Positions 5,622 through 23,710 are shown, counted from the first letter of the stretch. The stretch is 26,618 bases of DNA from Candidatus Abyssobacteria bacterium SURF_5 (GCA_003598085.1 QZKU01000009.1:1-26618), one strand, 5' to 3'. Translations and numbers: made by a program. The notes: generated by a model not told the origin, from the letters alone.

Positions 5622-6482
5622 TTATTGAGAGGCCCGCTCGGCGATCTTGCCGCGGGTTTCCATCACCAACTGCATCACGCGCGCCATTCCTGCCTGTTTC
5701 TTCTCCTGGTCGGCCTCTTCGCGCTTCGCCACGCGCACATAACGCGGATCATTCTCCCAATCGGCCGAGTGCTTGATACGAGGATCGCCGGCGCCCGGGA
5801 ACCCCATGAAGTGCGTCGGGAACGCCCGCATCATGAACGTGACGATCAGGTCCTTGTCATACTGCGCCTTGAGCGAAGGCCGGTTGTAATAAACTTCGGG
5901 CTCGCACGGGCCCAGGCACATCCCGATCGATATCTCGCATCCTTCGAGATAGCCCAAAGCCTGCGAAATCGCGCCAACCGACATCATCGCCCGGTTCTCG
6001 ATATTGAGCTGCGAAGCTGTCGCCGCCGCCCAGTCCAAGGCCATCCCTATGTCTATTGCTTTCCACACACAGACCGGGCCGGGAGTGCCAAATGCGCTTG
6101 GTCTCGTAAAATCCTTCGGCTTCTCCCGCTCTTCCGCAACGTAAGCATTGTGCTCTTTACAGGTGGCGAACCCGCAAGCGCCGCAGTCCCAGCCGAGCGT
6201 CGAGGTGCCGAGGCCGGTTCCGCCCATGAGCATAATGACCGGAAGCGTCCCCTTGTCTTTGCACGACTGCAACGTCTTATTGTCGCCGAAGCAGACGGTG
6301 TTGTCTTCTCCAAGAATGCCGAGCATTTCAATGATCGGGTCGATGTCTTCGCCGGTCAGAATCTCGATTTTCATCTCCGTCGTGCCGGTCAACTGGGGAG
6401 CCTTCAACGCTGCCATGGCGCATTGCTGTGCCGCCGCCAGAAGCCCATCGTTGGCCAGCTTCTTTCCATTGAAATACGCCAT
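5622..6482 (-). CDS. DUF2148 ferredoxin-domain protein, second of a tandem pair
   Basis: A 286-residue cytoplasmic protein of the DUF2148 family (proteins annotated as containing a ferredoxin domain), of unknown function. The likely Fe-S ligands are Cys100, Cys103 and Cys108 (DCGACGFATC) with Cys138 (GTPGPVC). MSVGAISQALGY at 168-178 is the conserved helix after them. The region that in the partner reads GIPVAAKGKSPF is changed here to GMCLGPCEPEVYYNR, with extra cysteines at 182, 189 and 193. A charged tail rich in Glu and Lys follows. It starts one base after the stop of the upstream paralogue, with GGAGGA as ribosome binding site, so the two are translationally coupled and may form a heterodimer. 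The [4Fe-4S] assignment is an inference from the cysteine spacing. Confidence 0.8.
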   Translation of the reverse strand: MAYFNGKKLANDGLLAAAQQCAMAALKAPQLTGTTEMKIEILTGEDIDPIIEMLGILGEDNTVCFGDNKTLQSCKDKGTLPVIMLMGGTGLGTSTLGWDCGACGFATCKEHNAYVAEEREKPKDFTRPSAFGTPGPVCVWKAIDIGMALDWAAATASQLNIENRAMMSVGAISQALGYLEGCEISIGMCLGPCEPEVYYNRPSLKAQYDKDLIVTFMMRAFPTHFMGFPGAGDPRIKHSADWENDPRYVRVAKREEADQEKKQAGMARVMQLVMETRGKIAERASQ

Positions 6483-6483
6483 G

Positions 6484-7266
6484 TCAGTCCTCCTTCTTCT
6501 CGCTGTTATCGGGATTGAGCGGATCCCACTGCCGGTAGGGCAGCCAGTTAACCATTCGCGAGATTACATATTTCGCGCGCAGCGAGTCGATTACGCGAGA
6601 CAAGTTATTCATGTGGTAATCCGGCAGAATGTCAACAAACGGACTTTTCCCCTTCGCGGCAACGGGAATTCCGACAACTACAGGGGACTTGGGACAGTAT
6701 CCTAACTTCTGACCCGCCACCCCTACCGACATGAATGCGCGCGCATCAACGAAAAGGCGGTTTGCCATGATAAGCGCAGAGCCTACAGCCCAACCCATCG
6801 CGTACACGTTCATCGTGCACATCGGACCATCCACCAGCCAGTTTGGATGCACCGGCTCGGTTAGATCCAAAACCCCATATCGCGCGTTTCGTCGCTCGTA
6901 AGTGAACTGGCAACCGGCGCTCCCCCCGCAGTATCCGCAGCCCGTATCGAACGGCTGAAGCGCCGAGACAGCGCCAATGAACAGGATTGCATCCGATTCC
7001 CGTACCATCGCCGCCTCATATTTGAACATCCTTTTCCATGCATTGTCATCCGGTTTTAGCCGGGCCACTTCTTCCATCTTTCGCGCAACTTTATCCAGAT
7101 CTTCGGCTCCGAAAACAATATGGCATTCGGCCATCTGGACGCCCCCCTGGCTTGGGGCCGTAATAGCCGCATTGGCCATCATCCGCGCGGCCCAAACAAC
7201 GCTCTCCTGCCTGACCAGGTCGTTCGGAGCGTTTGGCGGCCATTCCTCAATATAAATGTCCGGCAT
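6484..7266 (-). CDS. DUF2148 ferredoxin-domain protein, first of a tandem pair
   Basis: A 260-residue paralogue of the next gene. It shares an N-terminal helix, a central four-cysteine site (Cys110, Cys113, Cys119, Cys150; CGYCGGSAGC then GPMC) and the MSVGVAGQKLGY helix. It keeps the family's glycine-rich C-terminal segment, GIPVAAKGKSPF. The frame is open further upstream to a TTG at 7395. ATG 7266 is chosen because AAGGAG lies 6 bases before it and homology to the partner starts just after. The extra 43 codons are polar and low in conservation cues. It is transcribed away from the TetR-family gene from a promoter at 7437-7465. The function is unknown; a redox or electron-transfer role is an inference from the cysteines. 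Confidence 0.8.
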   Translation of the reverse strand: MPDIYIEEWPPNAPNDLVRQESVVWAARMMANAAITAPSQGGVQMAECHIVFGAEDLDKVARKMEEVARLKPDDNAWKRMFKYEAAMVRESDAILFIGAVSALQPFDTGCGYCGGSAGCQFTYERRNARYGVLDLTEPVHPNWLVDGPMCTMNVYAMGWAVGSALIMANRLFVDARAFMSVGVAGQKLGYCPKSPVVVGIPVAAKGKSPFVDILPDYHMNNLSRVIDSLRAKYVISRMVNWLPYRQWDPLNPDNSEKKED

Positions 7267-7436
7267 ATGAGTCTCCTTCTCTATATACTCCTCTGGTTCC
7301 TTGGGTGCTCCTGAACTCGTGGGCTCTTCAACTGAAGCCTTCTTATCACCTCCCTGATCCCGAATCGTTTGCACGCGCTTCTGTCTGAAAAACAAGCCGG
7401 GGGTGCGGCCGGAACATGATTCATTTGGTGAACGAG

Positions 7437-7465
7437 ATTATATCATGCCGCCGAAAGCTGGACAA
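7437..7465 (-). promoter_or_regulatory. Sigma-70 type promoter for the DUF2148 pair
   Basis: On the minus strand TTGTCC (7465-7460, 4 of 6 consensus) and TATAAT (7442-7437, perfect) are exactly 17 bases apart. Transcription would start near 7430 and leave a leader of about 165 bases before ATG 7266. Confidence 0.55.
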
Positions 7466-7501
7466 GCCCATTCCCCCGAGAAACCGCTTCGAGCCGGTCG
7501 C

Positions 7502-7516
7502 CTGTATTTAATACAG
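7502..7516. promoter_or_regulatory. 15-bp perfect palindrome in the divergent promoter region
   Basis: CTGTATT and AATACAG are perfect inverted arms around a single central T. The site lies about 54-68 bases upstream of the predicted TetR transcription start and behind the opposite promoter, a typical place for an activator. The cognate protein is unknown. Confidence 0.45.
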
Positions 7517-7534
7517 ATTTTCCGGGCCGCCACC

Positions 7535-7563
7535 TTGACAGCGCAAACGTTCCGCGATATAAT
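7535..7563 (+). promoter_or_regulatory. Perfect consensus sigma-70 promoter for the TetR-family gene
   Basis: TTGACA (7535-7540), exactly 17 bases, then TATAAT (7558-7563): full consensus in all three elements. Unregulated, it would be very strong, which fits a promoter kept in check by the overlapping palindrome just downstream. Confidence 0.85.
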
Positions 7564-7583
7564 TAAGTCAGTTAACCAACTTA
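7564..7583. promoter_or_regulatory. Candidate TetR-family operator over the transcription start
   Basis: TAAGTCAGTTAACCAACTTA is a 20-base imperfect palindrome with 16 of 20 positions symmetric. It directly abuts the -10 box, covers the expected start site and ends 6 bases before the regulator's ATG. The size and position are typical for autorepression by TetR-family proteins. Confidence 0.6.
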
Positions 7584-7589
7584 GCAGTC

Positions 7590-8186
7590 ATGTCAAGAAA
7601 GATCGTCGCGCCACAGCGCCGCAAACAAATCGCCGATGCCCTGTTCCTCTGTCTCGCGGAATCCGGACATGAAACAGTCACCATCAAGGATATCGCTCGG
7701 CGGGCGAATCTGCATTACGGCGTCATCCATTACTACTTCAAAAGCAAAGACGAAATCGTCTCGGAAATGGCGGATTCGATCATCGCAAAATATGGCAACC
7801 TGCTTCTTGAACGGACCCGCTCCGCTCATTCCGCAACTGAGAAAATAAACATTGCGGTCGATTTTCTGGTGGAGGAATTCATCTTCAATCGCCGCCTCAA
7901 TCGCGTCTTCTATAATCTTGTGCAAATGGCCTTCGAGCGGGAAACCATCAGAGATGCGTTGCGGCGGCAGTTGCGCGCATACCGCCGGCACATCGCAGCC
8001 GTTATCGCTGAAGGAACAACAAACGGGGAATTTCCCGCTCGCAGGAGCGGCCCGATTGCCTCATCGCTGGTGGCGCTCGTTGAAGGAATGGCGCTGCAGT
8101 GGGTGATCGATAGCAGAGCGCTCGAACGCAAAGAGGTCCACAGTCTGATTCGGGAAATGGTCGATCATTATCTCTTTGGTCATTAA
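7590..8186 (+). CDS. TetR/AcrR-family transcriptional regulator
   Basis: A 198-residue DNA-binding repressor-type protein. The N-terminal helix-turn-helix is clear at about residues 29-53 (TVTIKDIARRANLHYGVIHYYF, immediately followed by KSKDEI), the canonical TetR signature. The remaining ~140 residues form the helical dimerisation and ligand-binding domain, which is too variable to reveal the ligand. It is transcribed from a perfect promoter overlapped by a palindrome, so autorepression is likely. It is followed by an aminotransferase on the same strand and stands back-to-back with the DUF2148 pair. These are its likeliest targets (inference from position). There is no strong ribosome binding site at the ATG. 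Confidence 0.93.
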   Translation: MSRKIVAPQRRKQIADALFLCLAESGHETVTIKDIARRANLHYGVIHYYFKSKDEIVSEMADSIIAKYGNLLLERTRSAHSATEKINIAVDFLVEEFIFNRRLNRVFYNLVQMAFERETIRDALRRQLRAYRRHIAAVIAEGTTNGEFPARRSGPIASSLVALVEGMALQWVIDSRALERKEVHSLIREMVDHYLFGH

Positions 8187-8312
8187 CAAGGAACGCCTGT
8201 AAGAGGGGAGGGAAGTAAAATATTGTCGTTCAAACGGGCTAACCGCCATCGGAGGACGTTTTCCGATCGCTCAAAGGAAGCTTCAGAAATAATGCGGACA
8301 AGGAGGAGTTAC

Positions 8313-9683
8313 ATGAGAACGAAGAAAGAGCTGCAGCAACTGGATGAAAAATACCTGTTCCACCCCGTCGTCCAACTCAAAGAGCATCAACAAAAGGGCG
8401 CCCGCATCATTGTCGAAGGCGATGGCACTCGCATCAAGGACATTGACGGCAGGGAATACATTGACGCTTTTTCCAGTCTGTGGAATGTTATAATCGGACA
8501 CGGTCAGAAGCAGGTGCAGAAGGCGATTACCGAGCAGCTGGGCAAGCTCGAGTATTATTCGCCCTTCTTCGGGTTCGCCTCTCCTCCGGCCATCGAGTTA
8601 GCCGCAAAGGTCGTAAGCCTGATGCCGAAGGAGTGGAACATGGGGCACGTCATGTTCACCTGCGGCGGCTCCGAGACCAACGACACAAATATGAAATTTG
8701 CCCGCATGTACTGGGCGTGCAAGGGCAAGGACAGCAAGAAGAAAATCATTTCGCGCAACTACGCCTATCATGGGGTCACTTTCGGCGCATTGACGGCAAC
8801 GGGCATCGAATTCTTTAAAACGAATTTCGATCCGCTGCCCCCGGGATTCCTGCACATCATGGCGCCATATTGTTACCGATGCGAACTCGGCCTCACCTAT
8901 CCCGAATGCGGCATCGGGTGCGCCAAACAGCTCGAGGAAGCGATTCTTCGGGAAGGCCCGGATACCATTGCCGCTTTTATCGCCGAGCCGGTAATGGGAA
9001 CCGGCGGCGTCATCATCCCTCCCAAAGAGTACTGGCCGATGATCCGCGGCATCTGCGACAAGTATGAAGTGCTTATTCTGGCCGACGAGGTGATCACCGG
9101 CTTCGGCCGCACCGGCAAGATGTTCGGGTGCATGAACTGGGATCTGCGGCCCGACCTGATCTCCGTGGCGAAAGGAATAACCAGCGGATATTTTCCAACG
9201 GGCGGCGCCATCGCCAGCAATGAGATATTTGATACAATTCGAGATAATATCCCGAGCTTCCTCCCGTTCCTGCATGGGTTCACGTACAATAATCACCCGG
9301 TCGGTTGTGCGGCGGGACTGGCGAATATCAAAATCATAGAAGATGAGAAGCTTGTCGAGAACGCGGCTACAGTCGGCGCATACATGCACGATCGTCTCAA
9401 GGGACTGTACGATCTCAAATCAGTCGGTGACATCAGGGCCATTGGGCTGATGGCGGCCGTTGAATTGGTGAAAGACAAGCAAACCAAAGAGCCGATAGGC
9501 GAGCTTCCCATGGAGGGAACTCATCGGGTCGAAGAACTGATGTGGGAGAAAGGCATTTATGCGCGCGCAATGATGGAAAATGTGGCCGTCGCGCCCCCGC
9601 TCACAGTGACCAAGAAGGAGATAGACCTCATTGTCGACGCTCTCGAATCATCAATCGTGAAAATGGAAAAAGAGATGCTGTAA
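8313..9683 (+). CDS. Class III PLP-dependent aminotransferase (omega-amino acid:pyruvate type)
   Basis: Transfers an amino group from an omega-amino acid or amine to an oxo-acid using pyridoxal phosphate. The 456-residue protein shows the class III features: GGSETNDTNMKFAR, ADEVITGFGRTGK (Asp258 contacting the cofactor ring) and the PLP lysine Lys287 in SVAKGITSGY. Residues 187-203 hold four cysteines, C-x2-C-x8-C-x3-C (CYRCELGLTYPECGIGC). This insertion is seen in a subset of the family, including taurine:pyruvate-like enzymes, and may bind a metal. ATG 8313 is chosen over longer in-frame starts (TTG 8223, ATG 8292) because AGGAGG sits 6 bases before it. It follows the TetR-family gene without an obvious promoter of its own, so co-transcription is probable. 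The substrate is undetermined. Confidence 0.9.
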   Translation: MRTKKELQQLDEKYLFHPVVQLKEHQQKGARIIVEGDGTRIKDIDGREYIDAFSSLWNVIIGHGQKQVQKAITEQLGKLEYYSPFFGFASPPAIELAAKVVSLMPKEWNMGHVMFTCGGSETNDTNMKFARMYWACKGKDSKKKIISRNYAYHGVTFGALTATGIEFFKTNFDPLPPGFLHIMAPYCYRCELGLTYPECGIGCAKQLEEAILREGPDTIAAFIAEPVMGTGGVIIPPKEYWPMIRGICDKYEVLILADEVITGFGRTGKMFGCMNWDLRPDLISVAKGITSGYFPTGGAIASNEIFDTIRDNIPSFLPFLHGFTYNNHPVGCAAGLANIKIIEDEKLVENAATVGAYMHDRLKGLYDLKSVGDIRAIGLMAAVELVKDKQTKEPIGELPMEGTHRVEELMWEKGIYARAMMENVAVAPPLTVTKKEIDLIVDALESSIVKMEKEML

Positions 9684-10378: not shown

Positions 10379-11467
10379 TCAGAAAACCAATTTCTTCTTC
10401 TTGACCGGAGCGGGGGCGGCTTCCGGCGATGGGGCTGTAGGCGCGCTTAATTCGGGAGGAGCCAGCGAGATTGTCTGCTGACTGCCGGTCTTCATGTAAG
10501 TGATAACGACGGCCTTCAGGTCAAAATCGATTGCAGAGACCTTGAAGTCGCCTTCATTCAGGAATACCTCTCCTTCTTTCACCATGAACTTTTCACGGCT
10601 GGCCGGGAGTTCGATGCTCGCAATGGTCATTCCCTTGATCTTGGTAAGACCGCTCAGGCGCAATTCGGGCTTCGCAAGCTCATCTCGCGCGCGCTGGACA
10701 ATCTCCTTCGCTTCGGCGCTGGCAGGATCCACCTTCAGAACTTCTTCAGCTTTTGAGAGGGCTGACTCGTAAATCCCCTCGCTGTAAAACTTTCTGGCCA
10801 TTGTTAAGTTCTCTTCTTTATTCCGCGTTAGTATCTGTGCCAGCGCCTCCCGCAGAAAATCGGCGGCCTCTTTGTTCTGAGGATCAATGGCGAGAATGTC
10901 CTGCGCGAGATCCCGCAGCTTCTCAAAGTTCCCCTGATCAATCAGCTCCTGCGCCGTTACCACAAGATTCGAGATCCTTACCTGCACTTGCTCCTTCGCT
11001 TTACTCTCGACGTCCTTGGCGGGTGCAAATTGAGGATCAAGCCGCAACGCCTCTTGCGCATGTCTGAGCGCTACCATAGGATTGTTTTCCTGCAGTGCCT
11101 GCTGGGCGCTGGCCAGCTCGAGATGCTTTTTCGCTTCATCCAGCAAGGTCTTCGCCTTCTCTTCCTGGGGATCCAGATCGAGCAGCGTCTCTAATGTCGT
11201 CGCAGCGTCCTTGTAATTCTTCGCTTCGAACTGCGTCTCGCTTTCCTTGTACAGATGAGATTTGATCTTGCTCATCATCCGCAGAGCCAAAAAATTGCGG
11301 GGACTCTTCCGGAGGATGGTCTTTGTATTGTTGATGGCTACTTTTGAATTACCCTGCTTCAAAGCATCCCTTGCCTGTTTCAGCATTGCGCGGTCTTGCG
11401 CACTGCCACAGCCAAGCATCGTAAAACCAACAAGGAGATAAATGACGATAAATTTGCGCACTACCAC
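10379..11467 (-). CDS. TPR-repeat lipoprotein with PilP/GspC-like C-terminal domain
   Basis: A 362-residue exported lipoprotein. A hydrophobic leader ends in the lipobox TMLGC (Cys20). About seven helical tetratricopeptide-type repeats follow (for example NYKDAATTLETLLDLDP, GIYESALSKAEEVLKVDP). Residues ~270-330 carry a beta-rich segment (FMVKEGEVFLNEGDFKVSAIDFDLKAVVITY) that resembles the periplasmic domain of pilus/secretion proteins PilP and GspC. The tail is Ala/Pro-rich and ends in KKKKLVF. The start GTG 11467 overlaps the stop of the upstream dehydratase-like gene (TAG 11463-11461). A second GTG at 11461 overlaps that stop by one base. GGAAAGGA precedes both. A scaffold role at the outer or inner membrane is likely (inference). 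Confidence 0.8.
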   Translation of the reverse strand: MVVRKFIVIYLLVGFTMLGCGSAQDRAMLKQARDALKQGNSKVAINNTKTILRKSPRNFLALRMMSKIKSHLYKESETQFEAKNYKDAATTLETLLDLDPQEEKAKTLLDEAKKHLELASAQQALQENNPMVALRHAQEALRLDPQFAPAKDVESKAKEQVQVRISNLVVTAQELIDQGNFEKLRDLAQDILAIDPQNKEAADFLREALAQILTRNKEENLTMARKFYSEGIYESALSKAEEVLKVDPASAEAKEIVQRARDELAKPELRLSGLTKIKGMTIASIELPASREKFMVKEGEVFLNEGDFKVSAIDFDLKAVVITYMKTGSQQTISLAPPELSAPTAPSPEAAPAPVKKKKLVF

Positions 11468-12522
11468 GATGAAAGGTCCTTTCCGGGAGCATTTGCCGGC
11501 ATACGTCCTGCGCCCGCGTATCCGGTCGACTCCTCCGCATTTTTCCGGAGCATCTCGATAAAAGCGGTGATGCGTAATTTTGTTCGGCCATCAAGAGACC
11601 CGGGCTGGTCCCCCTCGAGCGAGAGAATGGGCAGAGGAAGCTTCTTTCTGAAGATAAGATCTTCTATCTGCCGATAGCAAAAACTCTGAGTATAATGAAT
11701 TATGCCATTCACTCTCCGCTGGGCGAGCGCCTGGAGAATATCCTCCAGCCGCGCAAATACTCCGTAGGGATATGTATAGAGCAGGTATTGCCGGACGATG
11801 TCAGCCGTCTTGAATGGCATTGAGAATTGGCGCTGGACTTCGTTGTATACCACCCGCGCCCCTTGTGATTCAATGAAAGAATGAAGATCGTTCCAAATTG
11901 GAGGGACGCCTATATATGCGATCCGCACATCGGTTGGAGACGGTTGTCTGAGGCGCGCCCGCTCCAGAAGCGCACCGGCCTCCTGCTCGAAACGCACCAC
12001 ATCGCCGCCGAAATCGCTGCTCGAAAGAAGTATGCAATGGTTTTCCTCGCCCGATATCAGCCCCTCTTCCCACGTCAGCCGATCAACTTCCACCAGCTTT
12101 TCCCGCACTGGCTTGAGGCGTTCCACCCACTCGCGCGCCTCTTCCGTACGGGTCCCCAGCCGGCTGGCCAGTTTATCGACCTGGAGCCGTAACAGGTCGG
12201 CATCCCGCGAGAAAGGGTATTCAAAGGGAATAACCGGTGTGCCGTGTACTATCAGCGTCTCGATCAGCGCCAACGTACAACTGCAATCCCCTTGGGTCAA
12301 CGCGATAACCGCGTCTACGCAACGGGTGCGTATCACCAGCCCAAATATTCCTTTTATCCAGCCACAGATATTGCGCGGATAGCCGGCATCCTCCGCGTAT
12401 CGAATGAATCGTGAGGGTTCTGGATCGCTAATAAACACGTTGTTCAGATCGACCGGCACATCGCCGGCAGCAAGAATCACCTCGACCGGAACCGTGCTTG
12501 TTATACCTATTCTTTGTCTCAC
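11461..12522 (-). CDS. 2-hydroxyacyl-CoA dehydratase D-component-like protein (HgdB/BcrC/FldB family)
   Basis: A 353-residue protein with the N-terminal GITSTVPVEVILAAGDVPVDLNN block typical of this Fe-S family. The family includes dehydratase subunits and benzoyl-CoA reductase subunits, which bind a [4Fe-4S] cluster and are energised by an ATP-dependent activator. Candidate ligands are Cys53 (CGWIKG), Cys80/Cys82 (GDCSC) and Cys282 (SFCYRQ). Known enzymes need two such subunits and an activase; neither partner is in the window, so the reaction is unassigned. The start is GTG 12522, with AAGGG upstream buried in a small hairpin. It has its own promoter (12572-12600) and overlaps the downstream TPR lipoprotein gene, which implies coupled translation. 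Confidence 0.85.
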   Translation of the reverse strand: MRQRIGITSTVPVEVILAAGDVPVDLNNVFISDPEPSRFIRYAEDAGYPRNICGWIKGIFGLVIRTRCVDAVIALTQGDCSCTLALIETLIVHGTPVIPFEYPFSRDADLLRLQVDKLASRLGTRTEEAREWVERLKPVREKLVEVDRLTWEEGLISGEENHCILLSSSDFGGDVVRFEQEAGALLERARLRQPSPTDVRIAYIGVPPIWNDLHSFIESQGARVVYNEVQRQFSMPFKTADIVRQYLLYTYPYGVFARLEDILQALAQRRVNGIIHYTQSFCYRQIEDLIFRKKLPLPILSLEGDQPGSLDGRTKLRITAFIEMLRKNAEESTGYAGAGRMPANAPGKDLSSW

Positions 12523-12633: not shown

Positions 12634-13848
12634 CTATATTTTCTCGAATGCCGTTGCGACGCCTTGTCCAATGCCGCAGCACATTGTCGCCAGTCCCCAC
12701 TGAACATTGCGGCGGTTCATCTCGTGAACCAGCGTGGCGGTGAAACGCGCGCCCGTTGCACCCGTTGGATGGCCGAGGGCAACAGCCCCGCCGTTGACGT
12801 TGAGCTTGTCCATATCCATCTTCAACTCGCGCGCGCAGTGAAGCGCCTGACAGGCGAACGCCTCATTAAGCTCATAAATGTCGAAGTCGTCAATGGCCAT
12901 TCCCTGCCGCTTGAGCATCTTTCGCGTGGACGGGATGGGGCCAATCCCCATAATCTCCGGCGGTACGCCCGCTTCACCATGATGCCTCACCGCCGCCAGA
13001 GGCTTGTATCCAAGCGCCTTCGCTTTTTCGAGCGACATCAATAATACCGCCGCTGCGCCGTCATTCGTCGGGCATGAGTTGCCGGCGGTGATTACCCCGC
13101 TCTCTTTAAATGCAGGTTTGAGACCGGCCAACGCTTCCATGGTTGTGCCGGGACGCGGGCACTGATCTTTGTCTATGACAAGCGAAGTTCCATCCTCATA
13201 TTCTATGACTACAGGCACCAATTCGCGGTCGAACTTCTTTTCCTCGATCGCCTTTTTCGCTTTTGCCTGGCTCCAACATGCAAATTCATCCATCTCGGCC
13301 CGGCTGATGCCGAATCTGGCGGCCAGATTTTCCGCTGTCAGACCCATCGAGAACGATGAAGGATCTATCAAATCCGGAAGACGTATCGCCTTGTGCAGTT
13401 TCCCCTGTGCGTTTGGAACCGAGGGCGTCGCGTAAAAATACTGCCGGTACTCACGCGCCATTTTCTGGTCCTCCGCACTCCACGGCCCAAGGCGGCCCAT
13501 CGTTTCCAGCCCCACCACCAGAATACAGTCTCCGTTGCCCGCTTTAATCGCATTGGCCGCAGAATTCAGCGCCGACAGACTCGAGCCGCACTGGCGGTTC
13601 ATCGTCAAACCGGAAAGCTCGACCGGCAGACCGCAATAGAACACCAGCGAGCGAGCGGCATCGATAGGGCCGGCTATCGTTCCACAGTAGATATCATCGA
13701 TTTCCAGCGGGTCGATCTGCGTCCTCTTCAGAAGAGCCTTTACCACCTGCGTGGCTATTTCCAGTCCGGTCAACTCGCGAAGGATGCCACGCTCTCCGGA
13801 CCGACCTATCGGAGATCGCAAAGCTTCCACAACTACTACATCTCTCAT
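12634..13848 (-). CDS. Thiolase (acetyl-CoA acyltransferase)
   Basis: Condenses or cleaves acyl-CoA with CoA in beta-oxidation or acetoacetyl-CoA metabolism. The 404-residue protein has the full catalytic set: Cys87 in MNRQCGSS for the acyl-enzyme, NEAFA, His360 in GGAVALGHPTGATGAR and the second cysteine at about 390 in MCCGIGQG. ATG 13848 (MRDVVVVEALRSPIG) is preferred because GGAGG lies 5 bases before it; the longer frame up to 13914 lacks support. A promoter lies at 13917-13945. Two other acyl-CoA-type proteins in the window (the dehydratase-like subunit and enoyl-CoA hydratase) fit a shared fatty- or amino-acid degradation theme, but they are not in one operon. Chain-length preference cannot be read. 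Confidence 0.95.
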   Translation of the reverse strand: MRDVVVVEALRSPIGRSGERGILRELTGLEIATQVVKALLKRTQIDPLEIDDIYCGTIAGPIDAARSLVFYCGLPVELSGLTMNRQCGSSLSALNSAANAIKAGNGDCILVVGLETMGRLGPWSAEDQKMAREYRQYFYATPSVPNAQGKLHKAIRLPDLIDPSSFSMGLTAENLAARFGISRAEMDEFACWSQAKAKKAIEEKKFDRELVPVVIEYEDGTSLVIDKDQCPRPGTTMEALAGLKPAFKESGVITAGNSCPTNDGAAAVLLMSLEKAKALGYKPLAAVRHHGEAGVPPEIMGIGPIPSTRKMLKRQGMAIDDFDIYELNEAFACQALHCARELKMDMDKLNVNGGAVALGHPTGATGARFTATLVHEMNRRNVQWGLATMCCGIGQGVATAFEKI

Positions 13849-13916
13849 CTCATCCTCCATTTGCTTATCTGTCCTCGAATGCGGGGGGCTTGCCGGGGGG
13901 TACTCCGGCAGCATGT

Positions 13917-20288: not shown

Positions 20289-20380
20289 TCACCCCGCATG
20301 GTTGACTGACTGGCCAATTTAAAATCTTCCTTCTCTAAGTTACCTTCACACCTCGCTGCTTGGAGCCAGAAGGGGTAGGA

Positions 20381-22090
20381 ATGACCAAGACGGCAGGAAG
20401 AATGACCTCAATGCAGGGCGCTCAAGCTCTCATCTCTTCCCTTGAAGCAGCCGGCGTAAAAAACATTTATGGCATCATCGGGACGTCGAACATCGCATTC
20501 GTCGATGCCTTGTACGATAAACGTAACGATATTCGCTATATCTCTACCCGCCATGAACAGGTGGCCGCAAGCATGGCCGATACCGAAGGCAGATTGACCG
20601 GCAAACCCGGCGTTTGCCTCGTTCATTCCGGCCCGGGCGCATTGAATACAATGATCAGCGCCGCCAACGCCTATAAAGACTGTTCCCCGCTTATCATCAT
20701 CTCCGGAGCCGTCAAACCTTCTCTTAGGGGCACAGACGGCATGCTCGAAGTGGATCATTGCCGGATCTTCGAGCCGGTCTGCAAGGCGGTTTTTCGCGTC
20801 AATTCGGTCAAAGAATTCCCTGCGATTTTCTCCTCCGCCTATCGTATTGCAATGACACCCGCGAAAGGCCCGGTTCTGATCGAGGCGCCGGACAGCCTCT
20901 GGCAAGCCGAAGAGGACGTCGACCTCGATCTGGACATTGTTCCACCCGCGCCACCCGATGTGCGCGATGAGGACCTCCAAAAGATATTCCGCCTCTTCCA
21001 AAAAGCGGATCGACCGCTATTCCTTGCCGGTGCGGGCGCGAGTGAGGCCGGCGCCGCAACCAATCTGCAACGCCTGGCCGAACGCGCTCATGTCCGCGTG
21101 GTCACAACCGGCAACGGACGAGGTGTTCTCTCGGAAAAGCACCCTCTCTGTCTCGGTCGAGCCGGTTTCTTTGGAAATCCCGTGGCCGATGCGGCGATGG
21201 AACAGGCTGACTTGATCCTCGCCCTTGGATGCGGCCTTTCCGACCTTACTACGTACGAATATACCGCTGATTGGCGCGGAGACCTTGTTGTGATCAATGC
21301 CGATCCGCGCGGCTTAAGCACGCTCCCATCTTCCTTCAAGGTGAACCTGACCTCCGTTACCGCCGATGCGGGAGATTTTCTCCATAAGTTAGGACGACTC
21401 TATGATGCCAAGCCTTTTGTAAAATCGAATGACTGGATGGATTCACTCTTCCCCATAAAAGAGCAATGGGATGCACAGCTTGCTGCGGCCGCGTCATCTG
21501 ATAAAATTCCGCTCTCGCCCGGGCGAGTCCTGAAGGTTTTCTCAGATTTGGCTCCAGAGAATGCCTTGTTTGCCTGCGGCGCTGGCTTAAACATGGTCTA
21601 TGTCTGCGATTTCATTCAAATCCAAAGTCCCCGCTCCTATATCGCGCCTAATAATTTTGGCGCAATGGGATTCGGATTCCCGGCTGCGTTGGCCGCAAAA
21701 ATAGTTTACCCTGACCGGCCCGTCCTGTCGGTCCTCGGGGATGGCGACTTCATGATGACTGTTCAGGATGTGGAAACTGCAGTGCGCGAAAAAATCGCCG
21801 CGACAATCCTCATTTTGAACGATAACTGTTACCGCGCGTTGCGCTACACACAGCAAATCTTGTACGGAGCAAGATTCTACGGCAGCGAATATGAGAATCC
21901 GGATTTCGTGAAATTGGCGGAAAGCTTTGGGGCTGCTGGTTTCATAATAAAAGAACCTAGTCAGATTGAACCGGTACTGAGACAGGCAATGAACTGCGGG
22001 AAGCTCTCCATAGTAGACGCGCGAATCGATGTGGACGATGCAGTCCCTACGAATATGCAGGCGATCCTGAAAATGCGCGGATTGGCCTGA
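20381..22090 (+). CDS. ThDP-dependent enzyme of the acetolactate synthase/decarboxylase superfamily
   Basis: A 569-residue thiamin-diphosphate enzyme with the usual three domains. The N-terminal Pyr domain has the cofactor-activating Glu59 in STRHEQVAASMAD. A central nucleotide-binding-like domain follows (about 190-340). The C-terminal PP domain has the metal/ThDP motif GDG at 453-455, closing with LNDN at 480-483. The HSGPGALNT segment is typical of acetolactate synthase, oxalyl-CoA decarboxylase, sulfoacetaldehyde acetyltransferase and related decarboxylases. No regulatory subunit (ilvN) follows, and the substrate-contact residues do not identify a member, so the reaction is open. ATG 20381 is chosen for GGGGTAGGA just before it; an in-frame TTG lies at 20360. 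A strong promoter precedes it. Confidence 0.88.
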   Translation: MTKTAGRMTSMQGAQALISSLEAAGVKNIYGIIGTSNIAFVDALYDKRNDIRYISTRHEQVAASMADTEGRLTGKPGVCLVHSGPGALNTMISAANAYKDCSPLIIISGAVKPSLRGTDGMLEVDHCRIFEPVCKAVFRVNSVKEFPAIFSSAYRIAMTPAKGPVLIEAPDSLWQAEEDVDLDLDIVPPAPPDVRDEDLQKIFRLFQKADRPLFLAGAGASEAGAATNLQRLAERAHVRVVTTGNGRGVLSEKHPLCLGRAGFFGNPVADAAMEQADLILALGCGLSDLTTYEYTADWRGDLVVINADPRGLSTLPSSFKVNLTSVTADAGDFLHKLGRLYDAKPFVKSNDWMDSLFPIKEQWDAQLAAAASSDKIPLSPGRVLKVFSDLAPENALFACGAGLNMVYVCDFIQIQSPRSYIAPNNFGAMGFGFPAALAAKIVYPDRPVLSVLGDGDFMMTVQDVETAVREKIAATILILNDNCYRALRYTQQILYGARFYGSEYENPDFVKLAESFGAAGFIIKEPSQIEPVLRQAMNCGKLSIVDARIDVDDAVPTNMQAILKMRGLA

Positions 22091-22490: not shown

Positions 22491-22811
22491 ATGGCAAATT
22501 CAGTGAAGGAGTCTTTTGACGTGATGCCGGCAAACTTCAAGAAAGATAAAGCGGCTGGCATGAAGGCAGTCTATCAGTGGGACATCACCGGAGAAGGTGG
22601 TGGCAAATGGAACGCCGTGATTGACAATGGCAATATCCAGGTCAGTGAAGGTCAGCATGCTTCACCGAACATCACAATCACGGTCGCGGCCAAAGACTGG
22701 CTCGACATCCTCAACGGGAAGCTCGACGGCCAAATGGCCTTCATGAGCGGCAAGCTCAAGGTCAAGGGCGATATGAGCTTGGCCATGAAACTGAAAACCT
22801 TGTTCCTGTAA
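22491..22811 (+). CDS. SCP2 sterol-carrier-type lipid-binding protein
   Basis: A 106-residue single-domain SCP2 protein. The fold's features are visible in order: an amphipathic first helix (VKESFDVMPANFKKDKAAGM), a beta-sheet with GGGKWNAVIDNGNIQVSEG, and the conserved SPNITITVAAKDWLDILNGKLDGQ read in parts. It closes with AFMSGKLKVKGDMSLAMKL. SCP2 domains bind fatty acids, acyl-CoA or other lipids in a hydrophobic tunnel. Bacterial single-domain forms are poorly defined and often lie near acyl-CoA genes, as here. The start is ATG 22491 after an exceptionally good ribosome binding site, and an intrinsic terminator follows. High expression is likely (inference). Confidence 0.93.
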   Translation: MANSVKESFDVMPANFKKDKAAGMKAVYQWDITGEGGGKWNAVIDNGNIQVSEGQHASPNITITVAAKDWLDILNGKLDGQMAFMSGKLKVKGDMSLAMKLKTLFL

Positions 22812-22824
22812 CAATGGTTGTGGC

Positions 22825-22863
22825 GCGGAGGGGAAGTCGATGGCTTCCCCTCTCGCTGTTTTT
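22825..22863 (+). terminator. Intrinsic terminator after the SCP2 gene
   Basis: GAGGGGAAG (22828-22836) pairs perfectly with CTTCCCCTC (22844-22852), extended by GCG/CGC past a bulged T. TTTTT follows at 22859-22863. Confidence 0.85.
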
Positions 22864-22872
22864 GCTCCAACA

Positions 22873-22906
22873 GACGACAACATGAATCCTGTAAGCTCCT
22901 GTCGTC
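22873..22906. repeat. 7-bp inverted repeat before the enoyl-CoA hydratase gene
   Basis: GACGACA (22873-22879) and TGTCGTC (22900-22906) are perfect inverted arms 20 bases apart, ending 18 bases before the ATG. They could be an operator or an mRNA stem. No promoter is obvious around them. Confidence 0.35.
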
Positions 22907-22924
22907 ACATCTCTCCATTACACT

Positions 22925-23710
22925 ATGACATATCAGACGCTCTTATATCAGCGCGATCAGGCCATCGCCCTCATCACTCTCAATCGGCCCGAAAAACTCA
23001 ATGCACTTAGCCCGGAACTCTACGCAGAACTTTATTCAGCGCTTGTCGAGGCCGATCAGGACGATGAGGTCCGCGTCATTATTCTCACCGGCGGCAATAC
23101 CGTCTTCGCGGCCGGAGCCGATCTCGATGCGATGGCCGCCGCAGGAAATACCGTCGATCGAATGCTGAAGACCCGCTTCGCTCCCGGCAATCCCTTCGAC
23201 TTCATCGAGCAAACCGGAAAACCGGTCATAGCGGCAATCGCCGGATATGCGCTGGGCGGCGGCTGTGAGCTGGCGATGTGCTGCGATTTGCGCCTCGCGG
23301 CCCAATCCGCCCAGTTCGGACAGCCCGAAATTCGCGTCGGATTGATCCCCGGCGCCGGCGGGACTCAAAGACTTCCGCGCCTCATCGGGATGACGAAGGC
23401 GAAAGAGCTTATCATGATGGGCGAATTCATCAATGCCGATGAAGCCCTGCGGCTAGGACTCGTCAACAAAGTCGTCCCCGCCGATCGCCTGCTGGACGAG
23501 GCGAAGGAGTGGGCGAATAAACTCGCAAAGCGGCCCCCCTTTGGCCTGAGGCTGGCAAAACTGGTAATGAATATGGGCGCCGATCGAGATCTGCCCACCG
23601 CGCTCACACTCGAGCGTGAGGCCTTTGCCATGCTCTTTGCCACCGAGGATCAGAAGGAGGGAGTTCAAGCTTTCGTCGAGAAGCGCAAACCTGAATTCAA
23701 AGGACGGTGA
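22925..23710 (+). CDS. Enoyl-CoA hydratase (crotonase family)
   Basis: Adds water to 2-enoyl-CoA in beta-oxidation-type pathways. The 261-residue protein carries the crotonase marks: an oxyanion-hole segment FAAGADL at 61-67, the second at [15 protein letters not shown], and both catalytic glutamates, Glu115 (GGCELA) and Glu135 ([15 protein letters not shown]). Having both supports a hydratase rather than an isomerase or a non-hydratase relative. The length is normal. ATG 22925 has no visible Shine-Dalgarno, unlike most genes here. Together with the SCP2 protein next door and the thiolase at 12634-13848, it suggests acyl-CoA breakdown, although the genes are separately transcribed. Confidence 0.95.

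Follow-up and report, generated by a model that had tools for sequence, protein, structure and literature searches.

DUF2148 (PF09918, 'uncharacterized protein containing a ferredoxin domain') is a protein family to which, to our knowledge, no function has been assigned, and a literature search returned no paper naming it and none relevant on a nitroreductase-fold 4Fe-4S heterodimer. Here, two adjacent, diverged DUF2148 genes, referred to as alpha and beta, are described from a 26,618-nucleotide stretch of DNA of Candidatus Abyssobacteria bacterium SURF_5 (the window); the locus studied covers window positions 5622-9683 on contig C9 of a 5.1 Mb genome (G000). From predicted folds, conserved cysteines and the gene neighborhoods of homologous pairs in other genomes, we consider it moderately probable that the pair constitutes a heterodimeric, nitroreductase-fold iron-sulfur (Fe-S) protein of anaerobic acyl-coenzyme A (acyl-CoA) catabolism.

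The closest described systems each share some features with this pair. Members of the nitroreductase superfamily (PF00881) form dimers whose subunits intertwine and whose active sites lie at the interface between them, and subgroup-specific structures sit around their flavin and substrate sites (PMC6017928). Alpha and beta share with this superfamily, especially with iodotyrosine deiodinase and the minimal nitroreductases, the predicted fold and a remote profile similarity; unlike nitroreductases, they show neither a PF00881 match nor the RRSxR segment, they carry a four-cysteine insert where the superfamily has its excursions, and their dimer would combine two diverged gene products. Cyclodipeptide oxidase AlbAB is likewise encoded by two adjacent genes and has one nitroreductase-fold subunit (PMC11055893), but the fold is found in AlbA only, flavin mononucleotide (FMN) is bound covalently and there is no Fe-S cluster, whereas here the predicted fold and the cysteine sites are found in both subunits. 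The PF04060 Fe-S domain, as in RnfB, has CGxCGxxxC followed by a distal cysteine, like beta and standalone DUF2148 members; alpha, in contrast, has Cx2Cx5C and no match to this domain, and outside the motif the proteins are unrelated. Within DUF2148 itself, standalone members are mostly single genes encoding 160-190 amino acids (aa), whereas alpha and beta are longer, mutually diverged and paired. What is added here is a predicted fold and an operon context for a family of no known function, which make this so far anonymous domain a candidate that can be tested, namely for an iron-sulfur version of the nitroreductase fold in anaerobic acyl-CoA catabolism. The hosts concerned are bacteria of the Desulfobacterota type and of the deep subsurface, and several copies are present in some of them.

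Paired DUF2148 genes and their cysteine sites

The two genes of the pair are the following:

5622-6482, minus strand: beta subunit (P0001), DUF2148 protein of 286 aa with Cx2Cx4C at residues 100-108 and C138
6484-7266, minus strand: alpha subunit (P0002), DUF2148 protein of 260 aa with Cx2Cx5C at residues 110-119 and C150

A single base, 6483, lies between the two genes, and the start of alpha was fixed by a conserved 'MPxIY' start, the open reading frame (ORF) being extendable to a TTG at 7395. Beta and alpha matched PF09918 with 58.2 and 64.8 bits, respectively, over a cut-off of 25, and are 26% identical to each other. The cysteine motif of the family is recognizable in both, as C100-x2-C103-x4-C108 ... 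C138 in beta and as C110-x2-C113-x5-C119 ... C150, plus C191, in alpha. The C-terminal family segment with invariant K207 and D212 is recognizable and retained in alpha, whereas beta has lost the GKNPYFDR-type segment and has GP...YxR instead. The tandem arrangement with its 1-base gap, the two cysteine spacings with a distal cysteine and the retention of a glycine-rich C-terminal segment in only one paralogue had all been pointed out in an initial annotation of the window and were borne out. The three additional C-terminal cysteines that it had reported for the other paralogue are likewise present in beta (residues 182, 189 and 193), but they are weakly conserved, occurring in 14, 3, and 5 of 28 homologues, respectively, and their significance was dismissed on these counts.

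Homologues of alpha were searched among 386 genomes drawn as relatives, six of which matched at E <= 1e-25, three of them within the phylum, and among 395 genomes of the phylum of another carrier (G063), 17 of which matched at E <= 1e-30, a few of these being standalone or second-family members. The Abyssubacteria compared were three genomes, namely that of the window, G001 and G002; phylum relatives of the window genome include 'Candidatus Abyssobacteria SURF_17', and carriers named in the searches include an Ammonifex metagenome-assembled genome (MAG) as well as Desulfobacteraceae, Syntrophobacteria and Smithella MAGs. At readable loci, every full-length alpha gene is adjoined by a beta gene, and incomplete alpha/beta cases are cut off by the end of a contig or by an assembly gap. 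An apparent alpha 'fusion' in G096 (L092) was dismissed as an assembly gap, as it contains a run of N. A second, diverged family (L114-L116) shows the same paired arrangement.

Cysteine conservation and evolutionary distances were evaluated for 28 pairs from 18 genomes. Each of the four motif cysteines of alpha was found in 28/28 sequences and C191 in 27/28, and the motif cysteines of beta were found in 28, 28, 27, and 28 of the 28. Alpha and beta distances are correlated (Mantel r 0.891, with 0 of 5000 permutations as high). In a maximum-likelihood tree, alphas, betas and standalone DUF2148 proteins are each separate, the alpha and beta branches having 99-100% support, and the alpha and beta subclades mirror each other. 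Some genomes contain multiple pairs, and in G064 (8.9 Mb; L075-L080) six diverged DUF2148 pairs are present in mostly acyl-CoA-type contexts. These results provide strong evidence that alpha and beta are an ancient, co-inherited pair, and a physical alpha-beta heterodimer is the natural inference. Of the obligate heterodimer proposed initially, the pairing looks obligate, judged by gene adjacency at readable loci and by mirrored, separately monophyletic trees, whereas the heterodimer itself is suggested by that pairing.

The cysteine pattern suggests that each subunit probably holds one Fe-S cluster, likely of the [4Fe-4S] type. With PF04060 ('Putative Fe-S cluster'), beta gave a weak match of 21.5 bits against a cut-off of 23 and alpha gave none, and several standalone DUF2148 proteins were matched as well, two of them (L041, 23.3 bits; L064, 23.0 bits) at or above the cut-off. 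In two standalone members (L009:1225-1758 and L012:1210-1692), most or all of the motif cysteines are gone and other family segments are kept, and therefore not every DUF2148 protein has the Fe-S site.

Predicted fold of the two subunits

The alpha model, computed from a 41-sequence alignment, had a mean predicted local distance difference test score (pLDDT) of 86 and a predicted template modelling score (pTM) of 0.81, and the beta model, computed from 5 sequences, had a pLDDT of 62 and hence a lower confidence. With Foldseek, the alpha model gave 83 matches at E <= 0.001. In VIA-align, its best match was iodotyrosine deiodinase (5ko7_A, Z 13.3, 142 residues, 3.9 A), and a tighter root-mean-square deviation was obtained with 4ttb_A (Z 12.8, 131 residues, 2.5 A); beta independently matched 3gfa_B (Z 11.8, 138 residues, 3.0 A). 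As models without a clear relative typically reach a best Z of 7-8, the Z values of alpha and beta are above background. For judging the models, however, the uniformity of the match lists matters more than the Z values, all 50 listed structural matches of alpha, and again all 50 of beta, having the nitroreductase fold. Profile-profile comparisons were made by hhalign against 17 alignments, consisting of nitroreductases and 16 control families, and nitroreductases came out on top for alpha, beta and standalone DUF2148 proteins (21.0, 27.5, and 21.8, respectively, with runners-up at 8.8, 13.7, and 11.4). The alignments between DUF2148 and nitroreductase profiles span nearly the whole domain. Both subunits are therefore predicted to adopt a nitroreductase fold. 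When P0001 and the profiles A5 and A7 were searched by sequence against solved structures, no credible match was obtained.

In the alpha model, the cysteine motif is placed between the strand 93-99 and the long helix that begins at 151, a stretch without counterpart in the aligned nitroreductases. PF00881 did not match DUF2148 proteins even at E up to 10, a setting at which the HMMER filters drop most weak matches. In the nitroreductase alignment A6, the arginines R47, R48 and R51 of the RRSxR segment are conserved. As this segment is missing from DUF2148 proteins, the pair is predicted to share the nitroreductase fold and is not classed as a canonical flavin nitroreductase.

Acyl-CoA operons and the possible role of the pair

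For 26 pair loci from outside the Abyssubacteria phylum, neighboring genes were scored with a set of hidden Markov models (HMMs), and the identical set was applied to 20 control stretches, each of 17 kb, taken from the genomes that carry these loci; neighbor families were named with Pfam and NCBIfam. Four families were counted as core: phenylacetate-CoA-ligase-like and fatty-acyl-CoA-ligase-like proteins, acyl-CoA dehydrogenase and SCPx-type thiolase. At least one core family was found at 21/26 pair loci and at 1/20 controls (Fisher p 1.7e-7), and at least two at 15/26 pair loci and at 1/20 controls (p 1.6e-4), counts for which the neighbor HMMs were derived from these very loci, several loci came from one genome in some cases and the contigs are MAG fragments. 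None of the four loci of standalone DUF2148 genes seen has a core acyl-CoA neighbor. The usual operon encodes a 130-aa protein called c8, a CoA ligase, alpha, beta, an acyl-CoA dehydrogenase, a thiolase and a short-chain dehydrogenase/reductase (SDR), and a divergent sigma-54 regulator often lies beside it. The neighbors resemble enzymes acting on fatty, aromatic and steroid acids, a likeness that does not decide the substrate class. The conserved c8 protein (for example L083:5805-6200, L086:11814-12254 and L114:7527-7919) had no Pfam or PDB relative, and a resemblance to SCP2 was not confirmed.

In the explanation that we favor, each subunit would combine a nitroreductase fold with a built-in four-cysteine site, probably for a [4Fe-4S] cluster, occupying the position of those excursions that shape the active site in nitroreductases. 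Alpha and beta would form one heterodimer, by analogy with the intertwined nitroreductase dimers and their interfacial active sites. Judged by the neighbors in other phyla, the pair may carry out a redox step in the anaerobic catabolism of CoA-activated carboxylic acids, alongside three enzymes encoded in the operon, namely the acyl-CoA dehydrogenase, the SDR and the SCPx-type thiolase. In the likeliest version, the clusters of the two subunits would relay electrons that come from, or go to, either a CoA-thioester intermediate or the dehydrogenase acting on it. Heterodimer, clusters and redox role are here put forward by inference, and a redox role is preferred because a nitroreductase fold comes together with four cysteines per site.

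In many operons, the pair adjoins the gene for the acyl-CoA dehydrogenase, which would suit an electron-transfer adaptor that binds no substrate and only hands on electrons of the dehydrogenase, whether to a hydrogenase, to ferredoxin or to a quinone-linked carrier. A heterodimer with two clusters would fit such a relay, and the RnfB-like cysteine motif of beta and standalone members points weakly in the same direction. However, the operon in G395 already has electron-transfer flavoprotein (ETF) and an Fe-S oxidoreductase with cysteine-rich CCG domains, and the six diverged pairs of G064 suggest substrate- or partner-specific copies and not a general relay, so that we regard a pure adaptor as unlikely.

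A different role is suggested by what the operons do not encode. Activation, oxidation of the acyl-CoA, oxidation of the alcohol and thiolysis are all provided for, whereas an enoyl-CoA hydratase is lacking: the order c8, CoA ligase, alpha, beta, acyl-CoA dehydrogenase, thiolase and SDR occurs without a crotonase in several of the loci L082-L091 and in L114-L115, a crotonase-type enoyl-CoA hydratase gene was found near the pair at only 2/26 loci, and none was present among ten unnamed ORFs beside the operons. Because the operon is otherwise without a hydration step, a pair acting as a non-redox Fe-S hydratase or dehydratase was kept as a rival, to which the missing canonical FMN motif also lends itself. 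Hydratase Fe-S clusters usually have one iron left open, whereas the conservation of four cysteines in each subunit points to an electron-transfer cluster with cysteine ligands only. Moreover, crotonase genes often sit elsewhere in the genome, and SCPx-type 'thiolases' may function as aldolases, so that the pathway need not be textbook beta-oxidation; a hydratase is accordingly judged improbable. A broader proposal, which we put forward tentatively and which is more doubtful than the favored explanation, is that DUF2148 pairs are enzymes of a novel type, namely Fe-S catalysts built as nitroreductase-fold heterodimers, possibly flavin-free, that perform the missing step of the acyl-CoA operons, be it hydration or reduction of a CoA-thioester.

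Besides the non-independence of paralogues inside one genome and the origin of the neighbor HMMs, several observations weigh against the favored redox protein of acyl-CoA catabolism. The structural models are of monomers and were built from shallow alignments (41 sequences for alpha and 5 for beta). The FMN arginine segment RRSxR precedes the first aligned DUF2148 residue and is thus absent, and in beta and most standalone members the N-terminus coincides with the first nitroreductase-aligned residue or lies slightly ahead of it; as these arginines lie outside the aligned part, a flavin redox role is not established. ETF genes are also kept at some pair loci, and since they co-occur with the pair in some operons, it is unlikely that the pair substitutes for ETF. 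No core acyl-CoA family lies near the orthologous pairs of the Abyssubacteria (G000, G001 and contig C16 of G002), and L110, a readable locus elsewhere, has none either. Among the four Abyssubacteria pair loci, only the second pair of G002 (contig C42, L027) has core acyl-CoA neighbors, with ligase, thiolase and SDR nearby. As the three orthologous loci are without core acyl-CoA genes, the role of the window copy rests on homology.

The TetR-aminotransferase unit and the intergenic region

Upstream of alpha, the window contains the following further features:

7437-7465, minus strand: promoter-like site of the pair, TTGTCC-17-TATAAT with TG ahead of the second hexamer
7535-7563, plus strand: perfect sigma-70-type promoter on the TetR side, TTGACA-17-TATAAT, part of the TetR-aminotransferase unit
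7564-7583, no strand: 20-bp palindrome TAAGTCAGTTAACCAACTTA, directly downstream of the TetR-side -10
7590-8186, plus strand: TetR-family regulator with a BetI-like C-terminal domain, a neighbor outside the conserved pair system
8313-9683, plus strand: class III (omega-transaminase-like) aminotransferase, with an ORF from a TTG at 8223, accompanying the TetR gene and not the pair

The initial annotation had joined the pair to the aminotransferase through a shared control region and had raised the possibility that the catabolism of amines or amino acids includes an unrecognized Fe-S-dependent step. In its fuller form, this view would have the TetR protein co-regulate the pair and the aminotransferase, the substrates being amines or omega-amino acids. 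The intergenic region was found to contain two separate, divergent promoter-like sites, compared with 0.2 expected. The elements GCATGATATAAT / GCATGATAGAAT of the pair promoter-like site recur upstream of alpha in G001 and G002, and its -10 context, GCATGATA[TG]AAT, was found upstream of alpha in both relatives. The palindrome TAAGTCAGTTAACCAACTTA, for which 0 occurrences are expected by chance, lies on the TetR side only, about 100 bp upstream of the -35 of the pair and off its promoter. When sequences were compared by eye, palindromes with the same arms followed the same promoter in G001 and G002, even where the pair is absent, and the arrangement of perfect sigma-70 promoter and palindrome (7535-7583) precedes the TetR gene in each of the three Abyssubacteria genomes. 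The palindrome is likely a TetR operator.

Adjacency of the pair to TetR and aminotransferase, which had prompted the amine proposal, is seen in the window and, with a gene for an 817-aa sensor-kinase-like protein in between, at the orthologous pair of G002, that is, at 2/4 Abyssubacteria loci and in two genomes only. In G001, contig C257 carries the TetR gene and the gene of an aminotransferase with 84% identity to P0004, the palindrome still being at the TetR promoter, whereas the pair lies on another contig, C144, and no class III aminotransferase was found at the 26 pair loci outside the phylum. Because the promoters are separate and the TetR-aminotransferase unit is kept without the pair in G001, the pair and this unit look like independent neighbors in the window genome, the pair on its own promoter, and the proximity of the aminotransferase looks like a local accident. 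The link was dismissed on these comparative grounds, and although a recent local recruitment is possible, a function of the pair in amine or omega-amino acid catabolism appears very improbable. What survives of the initial proposal is a catabolic step, in that acyl-CoA partners are conserved elsewhere, and of the neighborhood conservation that it had suggested examining, the two DUF2148 subtypes stay together whereas TetR and aminotransferase do not stay with them. The case illustrates that a striking neighbor in a single genome may mislead. Among the NCBIfam models shown, there was none whose curated cut-off the aminotransferase reached.

An acyl-CoA theme is present in the window but does not adjoin the pair. 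A gene of the 2-hydroxyglutaryl-CoA dehydratase D-component family (PF06050) is located at 11461-12522 on the minus strand, with a thiolase gene beside it at 12634-13914, 4-5 kb from alpha. Further along, a gene for a thiamine-pyrophosphate enzyme (20360-22090) lies upstream of genes encoding an SCP2 sterol-transfer protein and then an enoyl-CoA hydratase (22491-23710, plus strand).

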